Positions 55,459 to 64,000 of a DNA stretch of 64,000 bases are shown here, one piece after another. The DNA comes from Actinomycetota bacterium (GTDB lineage: Bacteria; Actinomycetota; Acidimicrobiia; Actinomarinales; Actinomarinaceae). The stretch is from contig JACNGE010000012.1 in the NCBI GenBank assembly GCA_014384285.1, positions 1 through 64,000 on the forward strand, written 5' to 3'. Below the pieces are notes generated by a model. The model searched no databases. It was not told where the DNA came from and was given only the letters and a program-made list of their open reading frames with translations. Positions within the stretch are counted from its first letter, which is position 1, and each line of letters opens with the position of its first letter. Both the position numbers and the translations under genes were made by a program.

Positions 55459-55827
55459 TTATTCAGTGGCGTTTTCGGATTCTGTCTTTTCTTGCTCATA
55501 TCTGTTTAAAGCAAGAACGAACATGACAAATAGGATTGTTGAACCAACTAGGAAAGTAAGGGGTAGAATTCTAATTTCAAAAGCGTTGAGTCCTTCTATC
55601 TCAGCAGGCTTTGGACCTCGTGGAGCATAAAGAACAAATAAAATAGAGTTGATTATTCCCCATCCGAACGTTCCTGCACCTACAACTAAAAAGGCCAGCC
55701 TTTTACCTAAGTTTGTAGCATTGATTAATAAAGTTGACCCAAAGAAAACTACCAGAGAACCTACAAACATTATTATTCCTGTAATTGTTAGATTTGCTGA
55801 AAGCAACGATCTCATTATGTCACGCAT
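55459..55827 (-). CDS. Three-span membrane protein of the bc cluster
   Basis: 122 aa with three spans (ITGIIMFVGSLVVFFGSTLL, FLVVGAGTFGWGIINSILFV, FLVGSTILFVMFVLAL). The loop LYAPRGPKPAEIEG resembles one in the 80-aa protein at 45890-46132. It overlaps the di-heme cytochrome gene by 8 bp, so it is likely an accessory subunit. No family recognised. Confidence 0.5.
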   Translation of the reverse strand: MRDIMRSLLSANLTITGIIMFVGSLVVFFGSTLLINATNLGKRLAFLVVGAGTFGWGIINSILFVLYAPRGPKPAEIEGLNAFEIRILPLTFLVGSTILFVMFVLALNRYEQEKTESENATE

Positions 55828-57244
55828 CAGGCCCCATTCCTCTTAAATAGTCTATCACTAATGCAATATCAGATTCTGGTAATACTGCACCAAATCCTGG
55901 CATTTTACCTCCACCAACACCGTTCACACCATAGCCTTTGCCATTTACAGAACCATTAATAATAAAATCTATCAGGTCACCTCTTGATTTAAACTGAATA
56001 TTTGCTCTACCATTTCTAAGTGCTGGGCCTAAACCTCCAGAAGCAATTTCTTTAGTATAAGCAACTCCAGCGGAATAACCTGCTGTATGACACCTTGCAC
56101 AATAAGCATTGAATAAGCCAACCGCTCTCTTTGCTGCGTCAATGTCACCATCAAATGTTGTATCAGCTATCTCTTCATAGGAGACTTGCCATAGCTGTTG
56201 TTCTAGTGCTGTCTCAAGGAAATCTAATCCTTGGAGTCCTTCATTTAAAAATTTCTCTTGTCCGTCAACGAGTATTCCAGTGTTAATTAGCTGAGAGTTG
56301 AGTTGTGACAAATACCCTTTTGCAACAGAGCCATCTTTTCTTGATGGTGTTGACTCTTCCTCTTCTGGGTTTAAATTAAGAACTGATAAGCCAACAACAT
56401 CTGCGATTGTTGCGCTGTACTCAGATAGTTCAATTTCTACAGAATCATAAAGTCCATCTTCATCAGAATCGATTCCACTTTCTCGTTCTAATAAAGCTGT
56501 AATCTTTTCAACTGCTTCTTCTAGGACAGGTAGTTTTGCTGGTCCAGCTTTAATTTCTTCAATTAAAAGTTTTTGATTAATAATTTCATTTTCTACTTGA
56601 AGCGCTGAGTTTTCAATTCTCAACAATGCAGAATTTACATTTGATTCGATAGTTCCAAGTTCAAATGATTGTTCAACTTGGAATGAGTGTAAATAGTCAA
56701 GAAGATCATTTAATTGACCATCGTTCATAGGGCCACCGCCTTCAAGTCCCCAAGCAGGCATAGGTGAATTAGCTCTTCCATAAATGAGCCAGTACTTGAC
56801 TTCTTCATTATCGTATCTATAAAAAACATTATTTATAGCTGGTGCTGCCCACGTGACTTTTACACCACTTCGTTTTTCAACATATGATGCTGCTCCTCCG
56901 CCTCCATCTACACCGTGACAGTTACCACAACCAAACTCTTCATAAAGATGGTGGCCTCTTTCAATAGAGACATCTTCAAATTCTTCTACAAAGCTTTCTT
57001 GACGGCTATCTTCTCCTAGGTAGTAAAGCGGAATCATAATTGTGAGTACTGAAGCAATTAGAACTGCCCATGATAAAGATTTATCAAGATGCTTTGTTTC
57101 CAATTCGTCATCAGATTTATATTTGCTGAGGTTTGCTGGAGTTTCTTCTTTTTTACCTGATCCTCTAAATCCAACAGCTGCAAAATATGCCAACGCACCT
57201 ACAATTGCTAGCGAAAGTAAAGTAATAAATATAGAACTGTTCAT
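55820..57244 (-). CDS. Membrane-anchored di-heme cytochrome c of the bc complex
   Basis: 474 aa. Two N-terminal spans (residues 5-25 and 57-77), then heme site 1 CGNCHG near 107 and heme site 2 CARCHT near 390. About 200 residues between them are helical and contain DSDEDGLYDSVE, which resembles a Ca-binding DxDxDG loop. Heme 1 sits in a class I domain ending LLDYLHSF and heme 2 in one ending IDYLRGMG. The layout matches di-heme QcrC-type electron carriers, with an enlarged linker. Confidence 0.8.
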   Translation of the reverse strand: MNSSIFITLLSLAIVGALAYFAAVGFRGSGKKEETPANLSKYKSDDELETKHLDKSLSWAVLIASVLTIMIPLYYLGEDSRQESFVEEFEDVSIERGHHLYEEFGCGNCHGVDGGGGAASYVEKRSGVKVTWAAPAINNVFYRYDNEEVKYWLIYGRANSPMPAWGLEGGGPMNDGQLNDLLDYLHSFQVEQSFELGTIESNVNSALLRIENSALQVENEIINQKLLIEEIKAGPAKLPVLEEAVEKITALLERESGIDSDEDGLYDSVEIELSEYSATIADVVGLSVLNLNPEEEESTPSRKDGSVAKGYLSQLNSQLINTGILVDGQEKFLNEGLQGLDFLETALEQQLWQVSYEEIADTTFDGDIDAAKRAVGLFNAYCARCHTAGYSAGVAYTKEIASGGLGPALRNGRANIQFKSRGDLIDFIINGSVNGKGYGVNGVGGGKMPGFGAVLPESDIALVIDYLRGMGPDA

Positions 57245-58140
57245 TATGATTCTTCAGTTGGTGCTAATGCAATACATGAAAGACCTTGAGGATATTTAAC
57301 TGATAGTCCAGGAGCTCTTGGTGACTCAATAATTGTTCCAGTATCAATAATTAATTTTCCGGCAGATGATACATTGACTACAAATCTATCCAAGTTTCTT
57401 GGTGCTGGTCCAGCATAATACTCCCCAACCATATTGTATTTAGAACCATGGCATGGACATTCAAATCCTTGAGAAGAGTTACACCATGGAACCCTACAAC
57501 CTAAATGTACGCATCTTTGGTAAACGGCTACAAGTCCCTCAGCGATTGTGGAGCCATCTGTAAATTGCGATGAGCCTGCTGAGCTCTCACTAAATGGAAG
57601 GACATAAGCCCTTGCCTCTGGAATGAATGCAGGGATGACTGATCCATCAGCTTGGATAATTTGATTTTTTAAATCTTCAATTTTTCCAGCATCAACCTTG
57701 GAACCAAAACCACCAGATACCTTTGGCCATAAAAAGCCAAGCCATGCAAGTGCTTGAATACCCATGAATGCACCAAACGTACCTCCTAGGGCTTTTCCTA
57801 AAAATTGTTTTCTTGTGATGTATCTCTCTTCTTCGGAGATTTCTTCATAAACAACTTTTTCCTCAATCTTGATTGAGCCATCAGTTTGTTCTGCTTCTTC
57901 ATCTGTTTCCTCTACATCAGTAACTTCAGCTACATTTACCTCTTCAACAGATTTTGGTTTTTTAGGTGCAAAGAAACTTGTTTTCTCTTTTGATTTTTCA
58001 GCTTTGACAGCTCTTTTATCTAGATTCTTTTTCCAGTCAATATTTCCTGGCCCTCTGCCAGTTACGATTGCAATTATTCCTACAACACCTAGTACACCCA
58101 CTGCTCCAATAGCAATAAAAGATAACTCAACTATGCTCAT
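57244..58140 (-). CDS. qcrA: Rieske iron-sulfur protein
   Basis: 298 aa from the ATG at 58140, which forms a 4-bp ATGA overlap with the subunit IV gene; the TTG at 58155 is less likely. One span at the N-terminus, a charged linker, a second hydrophobic segment after YITRKQFLGKALGG, then the Rieske fold with CVHLGC near residue 228 and CPCHGS near 248, both with the ligating Cys and His. It passes electrons from quinol to cytochrome c. Confidence 0.92.
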   Translation of the reverse strand: MSIVELSFIAIGAVGVLGVVGIIAIVTGRGPGNIDWKKNLDKRAVKAEKSKEKTSFFAPKKPKSVEEVNVAEVTDVEETDEEAEQTDGSIKIEEKVVYEEISEEERYITRKQFLGKALGGTFGAFMGIQALAWLGFLWPKVSGGFGSKVDAGKIEDLKNQIIQADGSVIPAFIPEARAYVLPFSESSAGSSQFTDGSTIAEGLVAVYQRCVHLGCRVPWCNSSQGFECPCHGSKYNMVGEYYAGPAPRNLDRFVVNVSSAGKLIIDTGTIIESPRAPGLSVKYPQGLSCIALAPTEES

Positions 58141-59129
58141 TCGAAATATATCCAATCTAATAAGTCATCAAACCAGATTCCATCAATCCATGGGTATGTC
58201 CAGTTCCAACCAGGACCTCTAAACAACACACCTATGATGGTAAGTGTTCCAGCTCCTGCTAGGAAAAAGGTAAACATCATGATTGCATACTTTCTCTTTG
58301 AAGGATTGTTTTCTGGATTTCTGTCTATGTATGGGATTGCAGCAAAACCTATCAACCCAATTACTAGAGGAATCATAACACCAGCTATTTGAGGATCCCA
58401 ATAAGAAAGTGCCTCCTGAAGACCAAGGAAATACCATGGTGCTTTTGCTGGGTTTGGAGTGATGTTCGGATTTGCTTCTTCGAGTAATGGTGCCTGTAGT
58501 ATTGCACTTAATATAATTAGGAATGCCATCATTGCCATCAAAGATATAAATTCTGGCAGCATGAGGTGTGGCCAAGTATTCACTTTATCAACTGGCTCAG
58601 CAGATGCTTTTTGAATCGGTTTGGCTTTAACAACTGTTAATAATCTCTGAGTTACTTTGACCTCTGGAGCAAAATCTACTTCTTCAGGAGAATCATCTTT
58701 TGCCGGTGCAGGTGCTTTAGCTTTTACAGGTGCAGGTACTTCAGCTTTTGCTGGCTCTTCTTCTGTAACAGGTGTTTCAACAGGTGCAGGTACTTCAGCT
58801 TTTGCTGGCTCTTCTTCTGTAACAGGTGTTTCAACAGGTGCAGGTACTTCAGCTTTTGCTGGCTCTTCTTCTGTAACAGGTGTTTCAACAGGTGCAGGTA
58901 CTTCAGCTTTTGCTGGCTCTTCTTCTGTAACAGGTGTTTCAACAGGTGCAGGTACTTCAGCTTTTGCTGGTGCCGGTGTATCTATCTCAATAACTTCTGG
59001 TTCTTCTGCTACAACTGTAGGGGTTGACTCACCTTTCATTTCCGCAAGTGCTTGTTCAACACTAATTCCTAAGGCTTTCGCTCTAGCTTCTGCAGATCTT
59101 AAAAGTAAATGTTCTGGAATATCAACCAT
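58137..59129 (-). CDS. Cytochrome b subunit IV-like protein with N-terminal tag and repeats
   Basis: 330 aa. The C-terminal half has three spans and the PetD-type motif PNPAKAPWYFLGLQEALSYW near residue 230. The first 35 residues (PEHLLLRSAEARAKALGISV) form a small helical module also found in two proteins of the rightward operon. Between the two lies a linker of four identical 18-residue units (AKAEVPAPVETPVTEEEP). This N-terminal extension is not part of normal PetD, and its linker may let the tag reach partner proteins. Confidence 0.82.
   Translation of the reverse strand: MVDIPEHLLLRSAEARAKALGISVEQALAEMKGESTPTVVAEEPEVIEIDTPAPAKAEVPAPVETPVTEEEPAKAEVPAPVETPVTEEEPAKAEVPAPVETPVTEEEPAKAEVPAPVETPVTEEEPAKAEVPAPVKAKAPAPAKDDSPEEVDFAPEVKVTQRLLTVVKAKPIQKASAEPVDKVNTWPHLMLPEFISLMAMMAFLIILSAILQAPLLEEANPNITPNPAKAPWYFLGLQEALSYWDPQIAGVMIPLVIGLIGFAAIPYIDRNPENNPSKRKYAIMMFTFFLAGAGTLTIIGVLFRGPGWNWTYPWIDGIWFDDLLDWIYFE
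58738..58970. repeat. Four identical 54-bp tandem repeats plus partial copy
   Basis: Units begin at 58738, 58792, 58846 and 58900 and are identical at every base; a 17-bp partial fifth copy follows at 58954. They encode the 18-residue Ala/Pro/Glu linker of the subunit IV-like protein, in frame. Perfect identity including silent positions means recent expansion or ongoing homogenisation, so copy number may vary between strains. Confidence 0.95.
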
Positions 59130-59142
59130 AATTTATCTCTCT

Positions 59143-59916
59143 CTAGAGCGGTCCAGAGATTCCTCCATCTTTTCTAACTCTCCAAAAGTGTATTGCCATG
59201 AAAATAACAATTATGAATGGGAAAAAGAGTACATGTAAAACATAAAATCTGAGAAGAGTGGCTGTTGTAGCCTCTAGCCCAGCGAATAATCCAAACTTAA
59301 TTTGGGCGCCAAACACCGGCGTATAGCTTGCCATGTTTCCACCTACCGTAACGGCCCATATTGCTAGCTGATCCCAGGGTAGTAGATATCCAGTAAAGGA
59401 TAAGAACAATGTTAAAAACAATAAGATAACTCCAATAACCCAGTTGAACTCTCTAGGAGCTTTATATGCACCGTGATAGAAAACTCTGGACATATGTAAG
59501 AAAACTACAAGAACCATGAGGTGTGCTCCCCACCTGTGCATATTTCTAACTAGCGAGCCAAATGCAACGCTCGTTTGAAGTGCCTGGATATCAGCATATG
59601 CCATTTCAGTTGGTCGGAAGTAAAACATTAACCATATACCTGTAATGGTCAACACTATGAAAAGAAAGAAACTCATACCTCCTAAACAAAGCGTGTATGA
59701 CAAACGTACTCCATGTCTTTTCACTTTCACTGGATGTAAGTGATAGAGGACGTTATTCATTACTACATATGATCTGTTTCTTGGGCTATCAGAATAACCT
59801 TTTCTAAAAGGTGATCCCGGACGGAAAATACTGGTTGCAAATTTGCTTCCTCTAAGTGAGTCGCCAGAACCTTCAGCTCCTTTTTTAAATCTTTCTCTAA
59901 GAGTTAATTTTGCCAT
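59143..59916 (-). CDS. qcrB: Cytochrome b6-type subunit
   Basis: 257 aa with four spans after a basic N-terminus. Two pairs of heme-ligating His are intact: [20 protein letters not shown] (spacing 14) in span 2 and [20 protein letters not shown] in span 4. Short b6 form, completed by the separate subunit IV. It binds two b hemes and forms the quinol sites. 13 bp upstream of the subunit IV gene. Confidence 0.93.
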
Positions 59917-59925
59917 TATATTATT

Positions 59926-60375
59926 TTATAACCTTCCATATATATACCCGTGTCTGTCACTTCTTTCCCCTGAGTCTTCATCCCAAGGAGCTGTATAGAC
60001 ACCGTTTTGAACAGCTGCATCTGCTAATGATCCTGCAAATTTTCCTAATGAAATTACCCCTGTTGGACATCGGTCAACACAGAGAGCACATCTAGTACAT
60101 GCCTCTTCATCTACAACAAAAAAACCAGGAGCGTCTTCAGCATTTGGTGCTTCAACGTTCACAGAATCGTCAATTGCGTCAACTGACAGATAGTGTATAC
60201 ACTTCCATGGACATATATCTACACAGCCTTCACAAAGGATGCACTCTGCTTCATCTATATGAAGAAATTGTTTTGGTCGAACTCTTGATGCGACTTTTTG
60301 AGAATCAACCATTGCAAGGTTGTATTTCTTCTCAAACTCGGGCATTTCGATGAGGACTTCAGATTTTTTAGCCAT
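59926..60375 (-). CDS. Two-cluster 4Fe-4S ferredoxin-like protein
   Basis: 149 aa. Two ferredoxin motifs: CILCEGCVDICPWKC near residue 41 and CTRCALCVDRCPTGV near 91, each with all Cys, supporting two 4Fe-4S clusters. No signal peptide, so it faces the cytoplasm. The gene is embedded in the bc operon (9 bp before the cytochrome b gene), which is not usual for bc1 clusters. Confidence 0.88.
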   Translation of the reverse strand: MAKKSEVLIEMPEFEKKYNLAMVDSQKVASRVRPKQFLHIDEAECILCEGCVDICPWKCIHYLSVDAIDDSVNVEAPNAEDAPGFFVVDEEACTRCALCVDRCPTGVISLGKFAGSLADAAVQNGVYTAPWDEDSGERSDRHGYIYGRL

Positions 60376-60961
60376 TTGAGCCAGTCTTTACAACTTTTTT
60401 ACCATAGTCTGAAATCTTAACTTTTCCTTTTTCTTTCATGTTGTTTATGTCTTGAATGAAATATCCGATTACAAAAACAGCAATCAACGCTCCCTGAGAT
60501 ATCCCTAATTGAATAATATCTTTAAGAGCACCGAAACTTAATGAGACCTCGTTACCAAGAAATAACATTGGTGGAAATTTTATAAACTCTCTTTGGTTAG
60601 TCCACTCTAGAGGTCCTTGCGCTAGGTTGAGCCACTCGGATGGTAAGACTCCAAAAATTAGTGTGAGTTGAACCCAGCTTAAAAAAGAAAAGTATGCAGC
60701 TTTGCTCCATGTAAGAGGTTTCTCGGTCCATGCCATAAGCACAAGGCCAATCAAGATTAATTGACTACCACTGAATGCTACAAACTGACCAAGGGTTTGT
60801 GGAAGCCAACCACGTGGAATCCAGTTGAAGTAATCTACAATTTCGCCTTTTGGAAAACCTGCATAGTGCGCGACAATCACTCCTCCTACCAAGCTGCCTA
60901 TACCAGCAAGAAAAGTGGGCAAACCAATTTTTACTCGGTTTCTATAAACAAAATTTATCAA
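60368..60961 (-). CDS. Multi-span membrane protein heading the bc operon
   Basis: 197 aa with about four to five spans (LPTFLAGIGSLVGGVIVAHY, GQFVAFSGSQLILIGLVLMA, AAYFSFLSWVQLTLIFGVLP, LGISQGALIAVFVIGYFIQ). No obvious heme-ligand pairs or known domain. First gene of the operon and overlaps the ferredoxin gene by 8 bp, so the two may form a membrane-bound electron-transfer module. Confidence 0.5.
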   Translation of the reverse strand: MINFVYRNRVKIGLPTFLAGIGSLVGGVIVAHYAGFPKGEIVDYFNWIPRGWLPQTLGQFVAFSGSQLILIGLVLMAWTEKPLTWSKAAYFSFLSWVQLTLIFGVLPSEWLNLAQGPLEWTNQREFIKFPPMLFLGNEVSLSFGALKDIIQLGISQGALIAVFVIGYFIQDINNMKEKGKVKISDYGKKVVKTGSNG

Positions 60962-61111: not shown

Positions 61112-62518
61112 TTGATGAAGATAAAATTAATTCCAAGTAACGAACAAGATTTATCAAGGGTATTCATTTTCCTGTTGCCTTTGGTTGTTTTGTTAACGGC
61201 TTCAGTAAATTTCCTAAGAGATGCATTCATGTCATTCTCAAATATACTTCCAGGAAACCAGGTTTTAAATTATGGATTTCTGGATAAAGTCTCTAATCAA
61301 GTAAGTTTCAACTTTTTATTTTCATTTATCTTGGTTCTGACCGTAGTTTATTTATTATCAAAATCTCTGGGTAGATCAATTATCATCTTCCCTATATTTT
61401 TCTTAACTGGTCTTGGTTTAATTGGAATCGAGTTTATTGATGTTGTAATAGGTTTTGTAGCTCCTGAGCAACTAGAGACATTAGGAAACACTTCAATGCT
61501 TCTATTGTTAAAAATACTTTTAGTGGCCGCTTTCTTGGGATTAATATTTTTAAACCTTCTTGCGAAAAAAGAGCCCTCTATCTTCCTAAGTAGTCAATTC
61601 TTAATTGGTGCTGTGATATTTTATTTCATATCTTTGCTCATCTTTAGAAGTGATTACACCGTAATGTCAGACAACTTCTTTATCAACTCAATGTATCTCT
61701 CAACACATATATATGTAGGTTGTTCGTTTGTATTTTTAGCTATTTTTTACTTCTTGATAACAAAAGGCCTTGGGGCAACATTATTTAGTAAAACGCTAGG
61801 AACAATTAGCTTTTGGGGCTATCTATTTCTTTTACCATGGACAGGTTTCAAATATTTTTATGGAACAACTCTGCCTGATTGGATAGAGAATGTTTCTATT
61901 TATCTTTCTATAAGCCTAATTATTCCATTACTTGCTCTAATCGTAAATTACTCAAAAACAGTGGCAACTAAAGAAAATAAAGAACCAATTTTTTCAGTGC
62001 TTATCAGTTTTGCATTTGTGGTGTTTGGAATAACTAATGTCCTTCAAATAGTTAGCTCTATAGCAAACGTCACTCCTATCGTCAGCCTTACAAATTTTGA
62101 ATACAGTGTTCGATATGGGTACATGTATAGTCTTATTCTTATCATGATTCCCTTTGTCTATTATTTGGTTCCTAAAATATATGGTCGTGAATTAACTTAT
62201 GGTCGACTAGAGTCGTTCAATGCTTACCTCATTGGTATCTGTGTTGTAGTGAGTCTTTCTTTAAACGCACTAATTGGAATCAATTCTGGTTTTGCTTGGA
62301 ACGCTGGAGCAAATGCAGGGAACCCAACTATTTATGGTGAGGGGTTCTTAATTACTTGGTCTCTAGTTTCAGCTTCGTATACTTTCAATTTGTTCTTTTC
62401 ATTACTATTTTTACTCGGTACATTTCTCTTTGCTGTGACAACCTTGAAAGCAATAATTGGTGGCACTGTGACTGAATCTGAGACCGTTCTAGAGGTGACT
62501 GGAGATTCTGATGAGTGA
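61112..62518 (+). CDS. CcoN-like membrane protein lacking most metal ligands
   Basis: 468 aa with 12 predicted spans. The middle matches cbb3 oxidase CcoN in order: STHIYVGCSFVFLAIFYFLI, ISFWGYLFLLPWTGFKYFYG, TTLPDWIENVSIYLS, then YYLVPKIYGRELTYGRL. At the CuB His-His pair (CcoN AGPHH) it has TGFKY; where CcoN has GHVHAG (both heme ligands) it has EYSVRYGY; the first-span heme His is also absent (VSNQVSF). Only the His of STHIYVG seems kept. It should not reduce oxygen. It overlaps the next gene by 8 bp. Confidence 0.78.
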   Translation: MMKIKLIPSNEQDLSRVFIFLLPLVVLLTASVNFLRDAFMSFSNILPGNQVLNYGFLDKVSNQVSFNFLFSFILVLTVVYLLSKSLGRSIIIFPIFFLTGLGLIGIEFIDVVIGFVAPEQLETLGNTSMLLLLKILLVAAFLGLIFLNLLAKKEPSIFLSSQFLIGAVIFYFISLLIFRSDYTVMSDNFFINSMYLSTHIYVGCSFVFLAIFYFLITKGLGATLFSKTLGTISFWGYLFLLPWTGFKYFYGTTLPDWIENVSIYLSISLIIPLLALIVNYSKTVATKENKEPIFSVLISFAFVVFGITNVLQIVSSIANVTPIVSLTNFEYSVRYGYMYSLILIMIPFVYYLVPKIYGRELTYGRLESFNAYLIGICVVVSLSLNALIGINSGFAWNAGANAGNPTIYGEGFLITWSLVSASYTFNLFFSLLFLLGTFLFAVTTLKAIIGGTVTESETVLEVTGDSDE

Positions 62519-63314
62519 ACTGTTAGCTAAAGTAGCAGAACTTCTGGGTGCTCCTGAAACTTTGGTTCAGAGATCAGCTGAGGCAAGAGCGGAAGCCTCT
62601 GGAAACACAGTAGATGAAGTATTACAATCATGGGCCGGTGGGGAAAGTGTGTCTTCTACAACTCCTGCTGCCAAAGAAGCTCCAGCAGAGGAAGCACCTG
62701 TTGAAGAAGTTAAAGAGGAAGAAGCTCCAGCAGAGGAAGCACCTGTTGAAGAAGTTAAAGAGGAGGTTGTCTCTGAATCGACTCAAGTGAACGTTGAGCA
62801 GGTTATTGAGGAAGAAACAGTTGAGCTAAAAAATGAAAGCTCATTAGCCTTCATCGCAGGAGTTATTGGAGTTGCCGTATTTACATATTTCTTTGCATTT
62901 TCAATACCAAAAAACCAGAGCGCAGATTTAGTGGCTGAAGCACTTAATAATGAGATTGTTGTTAGTCAGGAAGTACTTAAAGGAGCAGAGGTTTACAATC
63001 AACTAAATTGTCAATCTTGTCATACACAAAATGTAAGGCTTTTAATACCTGACTCACAAAATGGTAAGATTCTAAAAAATAAATTTGCCAATGAAACAAT
63101 TATCAAAAATACAGGACTTCTTAGGCTTGGACCTGATTTGTCAACATCAGCAACCAGAGAACCAACAAATAACAGTAACTGGTTAGCTAGGTACTTAACA
63201 AACTCTGCATCTGTTAGAGATGAAATTCCACATCCTAACTATGATTTCTTGAGTGCTACAGATTTAGATTATTTGCTAACTTACTTATTATCTTTAGGAG
63301 AGGTAAATGAATAA
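62511..63314 (+). CDS. CcoO-like mono-heme cytochrome c with N-terminal tag
   Basis: 267 aa. The N-terminus carries a helical module (ETLVQRSAEARAEASGNTVD), followed by an acidic Ala/Glu/Pro linker with a duplicated 15-residue unit, one span (residues about 117-137) and a cytochrome domain. That domain has CQSCHTQNVRLL and LRLGPDLS, as in CcoO (CxxCHSQMIRP, RTGPDL). The axial Met of CcoO (MPAY/MPSY) is replaced, with IPHPNY at that position, so the second ligand may be His or absent. Confidence 0.78.
   Translation: MSELLAKVAELLGAPETLVQRSAEARAEASGNTVDEVLQSWAGGESVSSTTPAAKEAPAEEAPVEEVKEEEAPAEEAPVEEVKEEVVSESTQVNVEQVIEEETVELKNESSLAFIAGVIGVAVFTYFFAFSIPKNQSADLVAEALNNEIVVSQEVLKGAEVYNQLNCQSCHTQNVRLLIPDSQNGKILKNKFANETIIKNTGLLRLGPDLSTSATREPTNNSNWLARYLTNSASVRDEIPHPNYDFLSATDLDYLLTYLLSLGEVNE
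62676..62765. repeat. 45-bp tandem duplication in linker
   Basis: Two copies of a 45-bp unit start at 62676 and 62721 and differ only at the last base. They encode EAPAEEAPVEEVKEE twice, in frame, forming the acidic linker between the N-terminal module and the membrane span. Confidence 0.85.
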
Positions 63315-63543
63315 TCAGCAAGAAACTAACGATTGGGATATTACAAGATGTTCAAAACCATTTTGTTGCCAAGAAGATGCTGAAGAATATATGACAGCAA
63401 GAAACTTTGATGGCATGGTTTTGAAACTTAAAGATGGAACGATTCAAGCCGTTTGTCCTACCTATCCTGATGGTTTTTATAGTGGAGCTAAAACTCTCTC
63501 AACAATAGAAAATAAAGAAAGCTGTTGTGATATAAGTGAGTGA
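63307..63543 (+). CDS. Small Cys-rich protein of the CcoN-like operon
   Basis: 78 aa. Cys-rich ends (RCSKPFCCQEDAEEYM, and ESCCDISE) flank a small alpha/beta middle (FDGMVLKLKDGTIQAVCPTY). No CxxCH and no membrane span. It overlaps both neighbours by 8 bp, so it is tightly coupled to the two tagged proteins. Metal carrier or assembly factor are possibilities; no family recognised. Confidence 0.5.
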   Translation: MNNQQETNDWDITRCSKPFCCQEDAEEYMTARNFDGMVLKLKDGTIQAVCPTYPDGFYSGAKTLSTIENKESCCDISE

Positions 63544-64000
63544 ACTATTAGCTAAAGTCGCCGAGATGCTTGGAGCTCCTGAAACTTTGGTTCAGAGATC
63601 AGCTGAGGCAAGAGCGGAAGCATCTGGAAATACAGTCGACCAAGTTCTACAATCATGGGCTGGTGGAGAAAGTGTAGCATCTGCATCACCTCCGGCAGAG
63701 GAAGCTCCTGCTGAGGAAGTAAAAGAAGAAGTTGCTGTAGCAGAGGAAGCTCCTGTAGCTCAAAAAACCACGTCTAAAGTTGAAACTGTTATTAAAAAAG
63801 TTTCCCTAGCTAACAACACCATGGGAATTAAGTTGAATACGGATGCAGTACTACCAAGATGGTTAAATTTTAGTTTTATTGTTATCCCAATATTTATCTT
63901 GATTGGAATGATTAACACCTCTGGAACTCAAGAGTGTGGTGTAAATGGAATCTTAGATGTTGATAGAAAATCACAGCAAACAGTAAATTGTGATGGTTCA
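63536..64000 (+). CDS. Tagged membrane protein, probably cytochrome c, 5' part
   Basis: First 155 codons from a GTG overlapping the previous gene; it runs off the window. Residues 1-45 are almost identical to the module of the CcoO-like protein (ETLVQRSAEARAEASGNTVD), followed by an acidic linker and one span (LNFSFIVIPIFILIGMIN). After it comes SGTQECGVNG, before any heme motif. By analogy with CcoP or its neighbour it could be another membrane cytochrome c, but the decisive part is not visible. Confidence 0.6.
   Translation, partial: MSELLAKVAEMLGAPETLVQRSAEARAEASGNTVDQVLQSWAGGESVASASPPAEEAPAEEVKEEVAVAEEAPVAQKTTSKVETVIKKVSLANNTMGIKLNTDAVLPRWLNFSFIVIPIFILIGMINTSGTQECGVNGILDVDRKSQQTVNCDGS

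Follow-up and report, generated by a model that had tools for sequence, protein, structure and literature searches.

A CcoN-like protein without heme or copper ligands beside the bc operon of Acidimicrobiia

Six His ligands are the defining feature of heme-copper oxidases. The genome of Candidatus Actinomarina (OCS155; class Acidimicrobiia) encodes a protein that resembles CcoN, the subunit I of cbb3-type oxidases, and lacks these residues. What can such a protein do, and why is it kept? The gene lies in the window, i.e. the whole analysed stretch of 64,000 nucleotides (contig JACNGE010000012.1). The assignment to Candidatus Actinomarina rests on the cytochrome b of the adjacent operon, with which named genomes were searched.

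An oxidase fold without its ligands

The open reading frame ends at 62518 and has two possible starts, 61112 (TTG, 468 aa) and 61115 (ATG, 467 aa). The ATG is the more likely one because this start is conserved in the genus.

61115-62518, forward strand: ligandless CcoN-like protein with 12 predicted transmembrane (TM) helices and no heme or CuB ligands (ORF, Pfam, phmmer, AlphaFold2, Foldseek and alignment)

The protein matched Pfam COX1 (PF00115) with 39.6 bits, above the cut-off of 34.8, and NCBIfam ccoN (TIGR00780) with E = 9e-18 and 64.4 bits, which does not reach the cut-off of 583. A phmmer search against sequences of solved structures returned five matches at E <= 10, all annotated as cytochrome c oxidases and, where named, as cbb3-type subunit I; the best was a solved CcoN (1.1e-12). 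The AlphaFold2 model, computed with 51 relatives as input, reached a mean pLDDT of 91.9 and a pTM of 0.93, and Foldseek ranked solved CcoN first (3mk7/8smr/6xkw; TM 0.84-0.86, E about 1e-13). By model and Foldseek, the window protein has the heme-copper oxidase subunit I fold of 12 TM helices, and its homology to CcoN is well above chance.

Ligand positions were mapped by alignment to the CcoN of Rhizobium etli, and all six His ligands are missing. The corresponding residues, all on the forward strand and placed by this alignment, are as follows.

61292-61294, forward strand: S61, position of the TM2 heme b His
61700-61708, forward strand: S197, position of the TM6 CuB His, with H199 two residues on
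61850-61855, forward strand: K247-Y248, position of the TM7 CuB His-His pair
62108-62116, forward strand: V333 and Y335, position of the TM10 heme b3 and heme b His pair

The catalytic cross-linking Tyr of TM7 is replaced by Leu. With no His at the six positions, this Tyr lost and the CcoN fold kept, the sequence-only reading of the gene as a CcoN-like subunit minus its metal ligands is borne out. That reading was right about the loss itself, but its residue calls (Phe/Lys, Val/Arg/Ser and Asn) were slightly off and it did not mention H199. H199, in the motif STHIYVG, is the sole His of the whole protein and is invariant in the genus. Its placement near the TM6 CuB position depends on the method: phmmer pairs it with the CuB His, and MAFFT sets it two residues off. 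On the sequence, one His cannot replace six ligands, and the idea that the ligands are displaced but present, which would have refuted the loss, is ruled out, as the protein has this His only.

The loss extends over the family. Among 113 aligned ligandless members, 68 of them below 80% identity to each other, His occupies one of 678 ligand cells and the Tyr is kept in none. At none of the six positions do these members conserve a substitute ligand. In contrast, all eight ligand-bearing CcoN, five of them from other classes of the phylum, retain the six His and the Tyr. The protein is thus a heme-copper oxidase fold without cofactors. It cannot be an oxidase of known type, and the absence of catalysis is well supported, O2 reductase activity being inferred to be absent without data on the protein itself.

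Could heme or metal still be bound through other ligands? H199 and K247 lie near the CuB site throughout the genus and would be the candidates. However, the window protein offers a single His and the 113 members share no substitute, and we consider residual binding very improbable.

Distribution, origin and selection

An initial search of 34 other species of the genus found the ligandless protein in most of them, and those without a match in this search were incomplete genomes. A profile search gave matches in 160 of 395 genomes of the class (E <= 0.001); of these, about ten match weakly and probably represent ordinary oxidases, so that about 150 carriers remain. Over half of the 395 sampled genomes are without the protein. 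The ligandless form also occurs in five genomes from other classes of the phylum. A loss limited to Actinomarina was ruled out, since other families and classes share the form. One bin (G000) carries the whole locus twice, on contigs C8 and C10 (L005 and L006), with about 75-98% protein identity and the same flanks; the second copy is probably a sister-strain contig in the bin.

A tree computed without the ligand columns and without NorB groups the ligandless proteins in a single clade (support 100/99.6). Next to this clade stand the ligand-bearing CcoN-like proteins from the phylum, together with a cbb3-type subunit I of Paraburkholderia. The single clade suggests that the ligands were probably lost once and long ago, as far as sequences can tell. 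When NorB was included, a quick tree placed the fast-evolving genus with NorB, and this tree carried a warning for joined long branches. An origin from NorB was ruled out by the single clade recovered without NorB; the best sequence and fold matches of the window protein are also CcoN, not NorB.

The ligand-bearing CcoN-like proteins of the phylum (L125-L128 and L130) are adjacent in the tree and share the FGW region after TM2, but they bear six His and the Tyr, and no bc operon was found next to them. Compared with CcoN of cbb3 oxidases (C-family), the fold, helix order, FW and PxW motifs and the CcoO partner gene are alike, whereas the ligandless protein has no heme b, heme b3 or CuB ligands and no Tyr, and its gene adjoins a bc operon. 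NorB likewise has the heme-copper fold and a mono-heme partner, but it keeps most of the six ligand columns, while the ligandless family keeps none.

Close Actinomarina copies show dN/dS of about 0.04-0.07, similar to the values of the remaining operon genes, and no stop codons or frameshifts were found in any ligandless copy among the relatives. The gene is under purifying selection. A decaying pseudogene, which the loss of all catalytic residues might suggest, is refuted by the dN/dS of about 0.05 and the intact frames, and the same gene order is kept across families; its probability is negligible. Relaxed selection, which would have spoken against a protein kept for use, does not apply for the same reasons. 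In the genus, the ligandless CcoN evolves much faster than cytochrome b.

The bc operon and the cytochrome partners

The ligandless CcoN gene is divergent from a bc operon; its downstream neighbours are a CcoO-like gene and, after that, a second cytochrome c gene.

62511-63314, forward strand: CcoO-like membrane-anchored mono-heme cytochrome c; CxxCH kept, sixth ligand His (IPHPNYDFL), not Met
63536-64000, forward strand: cytc2, second membrane-anchored cytochrome c; runs off the window (full gene 299 aa, CAGCH and GGMPGF)
60368-60961, reverse strand: membrane protein of 197 aa, family unknown; the divergent bc operon starts with this gene
59926-60375, reverse strand: two-[4Fe-4S] ferredoxin-like protein of the bc operon
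59143-59916, reverse strand: cytochrome b N-terminal (PetB-like) part
58137-59129, reverse strand: cytochrome b C-terminal (PetD-like) part, with an N-terminal RSAEARA motif
57244-58155, reverse strand: Rieske iron-sulfur protein
55820-57244, reverse strand: di-heme cytochrome c of the bc operon
55459-55827, reverse strand: membrane protein of 122 aa; the bc operon ends with this gene

This divergent order is kept across the class, and in many genomes CcoO is fused to the ligandless CcoN. The search of related genomes thus found the same ligand loss together with conservation of the operon, class-wide. Intactness, purifying selection and a conserved operon are all met, in support of the earlier claim of an intact, non-catalytic protein coupled to a cytochrome beside the bc complex. 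The two membrane proteins at the ends of the bc operon (60368-60961 and 55459-55827) match no Pfam or NCBIfam family, and both are conserved with the operon. No CcoP or CcoGHIS genes were seen at the locus, which has only the mono-heme cytc2 (the rest of the genome was not covered), and genes for regulators or assembly factors are absent from the cluster. CcoN-CcoO pairs are also present outside the class, where no bc operon was found beside them.

Within the class, the ligandless CcoN is co-inherited with one bc lineage, as judged from gene trees and loci. In the cytochrome b tree, carrying or lacking the protein amounts to one change (102 with, 11 without), on a weakly supported branch, and loci without the protein bear a more divergent bc operon. 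Twelve Acidimicrobiia loci (L247, L250, L253, L259, L260, L263, L264, L266, L267, L270, L272 and L274) have a divergent form of the bc operon and no ligandless CcoN was found there; some of them have only a short flank on the CcoN side. Records titled Ferrithrix and Ilumatobacter are among these twelve.

A helical motif of about 45 aa (P..L..RSAEARA.A.G) occurs at the N-termini of CcoO, cytc2, the C-terminal part of cytochrome b and a membrane protein near the caa3 genes.

62511-62645, window: RSAEARA-type motif
63536-63670, window: RSAEARA-type motif
59028-59129, window: RSAEARA-type motif
2147-2281 of locus L007: RSAEARA-type motif

The motif had no Pfam match. In a relative it is also found on a 2-oxoacid oxidoreductase-like protein, and its use as proof of a supercomplex was dropped on that ground.

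The CxxCH of CcoO is kept wherever the gene was found. In families f2 and f7, among others, the sixth-ligand position of CcoO is Met; in Actinomarina and several further lineages it is His. His in place of Met often means a lower potential, which fits a main electron wire less well. The CcoO heme domain was not found in four Actinomarina assemblies and in one other family member (G063), all of which keep the ligandless CcoN. It may have been lost by collapse of repeats during assembly; this cannot be separated from a true deletion because, in 6 of 10 intact copies examined, CcoO and cytc2 have identical stretches of 164-221 bp in their 5' ends. These repeats suggest gene conversion and a risk of assembly collapse.

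L031, L037-L040 and L047: exact repeats shared by the 5' ends of CcoO and cytc2

Intact aa3-type CoxI was present in all 25 carrier genomes checked, in one of them split over two contigs. Therefore, oxygen reduction is independent of the ligandless CcoN. The CuA subunits of both Actinomarina oxidases (L007 5912-6928 and L008 3335-4339) have a C-terminal heme c motif and are of the caa3 type.

Possible roles

The reading that we favour as the most likely, with moderate confidence, is that of a redox-inert scaffold holding c-type cytochromes to one bc lineage that feeds aa3/caa3 oxidases; the sequence-only reading had likewise suggested, tentatively, a scaffold or an electron-routing subunit for the bc complex. 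A cbb3-type CcoN would have lost heme b, heme b3, CuB and the catalytic Tyr in a common ancestor, and with them the reduction of O2 or NO. The protein would have been kept in the membrane as an inert scaffold whose fold may hold the heme c of CcoO, and probably also cytc2, next to the bc complex. Electrons would then pass from quinol through the bc complex to the c hemes of CcoO and cytc2, and on to the separate aa3/caa3 oxidases. What the analysis shows is the oxidase fold, the ligand loss in one clade, purifying selection, a constant gene order with CcoO often fused to the ligandless CcoN, the link to one bc lineage and the intact CoxI of all carriers checked; binding, the direction of electron flow and the scaffold function itself are inferred. 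There are no binding data, and docking of CcoO is not demonstrated, as the model of a fused CcoN-CcoO leaves the heme domain at low confidence. A bias of conservation towards the periplasmic face, considered as proof of CcoO docking, was not found in the ligandless CcoN. The His sixth ligand and the absence of the protein from more than half of the sampled class also count against a scaffold, and loss of the CcoO heme domain, if real, would weaken the role as CcoO anchor.

Some of these points can be read differently. A heme-less CcoN joined to a c-type heme might sense redox state or take part in the assembly of the bc complex or of the aa3 oxidase, with the main flow of electrons going elsewhere. 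The change of the CcoO sixth ligand from Met to His in several lineages, the assemblies without its heme domain and the fast evolution relative to cytochrome b in the genus would all suit such a role; however, the gene order is linked to structural bc and cytochrome genes in a cluster that has no regulator or assembly gene. We hold a regulatory or assembly role to be unlikely, though a real possibility. The emptied heme and CuB cavities might instead form a path for protons, ions, quinone or lipid that links electron transfer to transport or that provides the bc complex with an additional quinone site. The 12-helix fold, its core being empty, would allow this, and in the genus that core contains the invariant H199 and a Lys at the CuB site. 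But conservation across the family is lowest in the core, and at the ligand sites the members have no polar residue in common, so that transport and the extra quinone site, judged jointly, appear rather improbable.

Comparable cases are found in other respiratory enzymes. CydB of cytochrome bd is the paralogue of a heme-binding subunit, has shed its hemes and now plays a structural part; the heme loss and the role resemble those proposed here, but the fold and family are different. In the bcc-aa3 and bc1-cbb3 supercomplexes, a bc complex and an oxidase are joined by bound cytochromes (PMC8795186, PMC7876108). The CcoN or CoxI in those complexes works as an oxidase, whereas the CcoN partner here has no metal sites.

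We found no published description of a ligandless CcoN family in the literature searched, which largely did not cover subscription journals and preprints. A ligandless family that is conserved in about 150 of the 395 genomes sampled from a class with abundant marine plankton would show that an oxidase core can be useful without being catalytic. Profile-based annotation (COX1, "cbb3 oxidase subunit I") can wrongly credit its carriers with a high-affinity oxidase. The locus also points towards an unstudied route of electrons from the bc complex to the oxidase.
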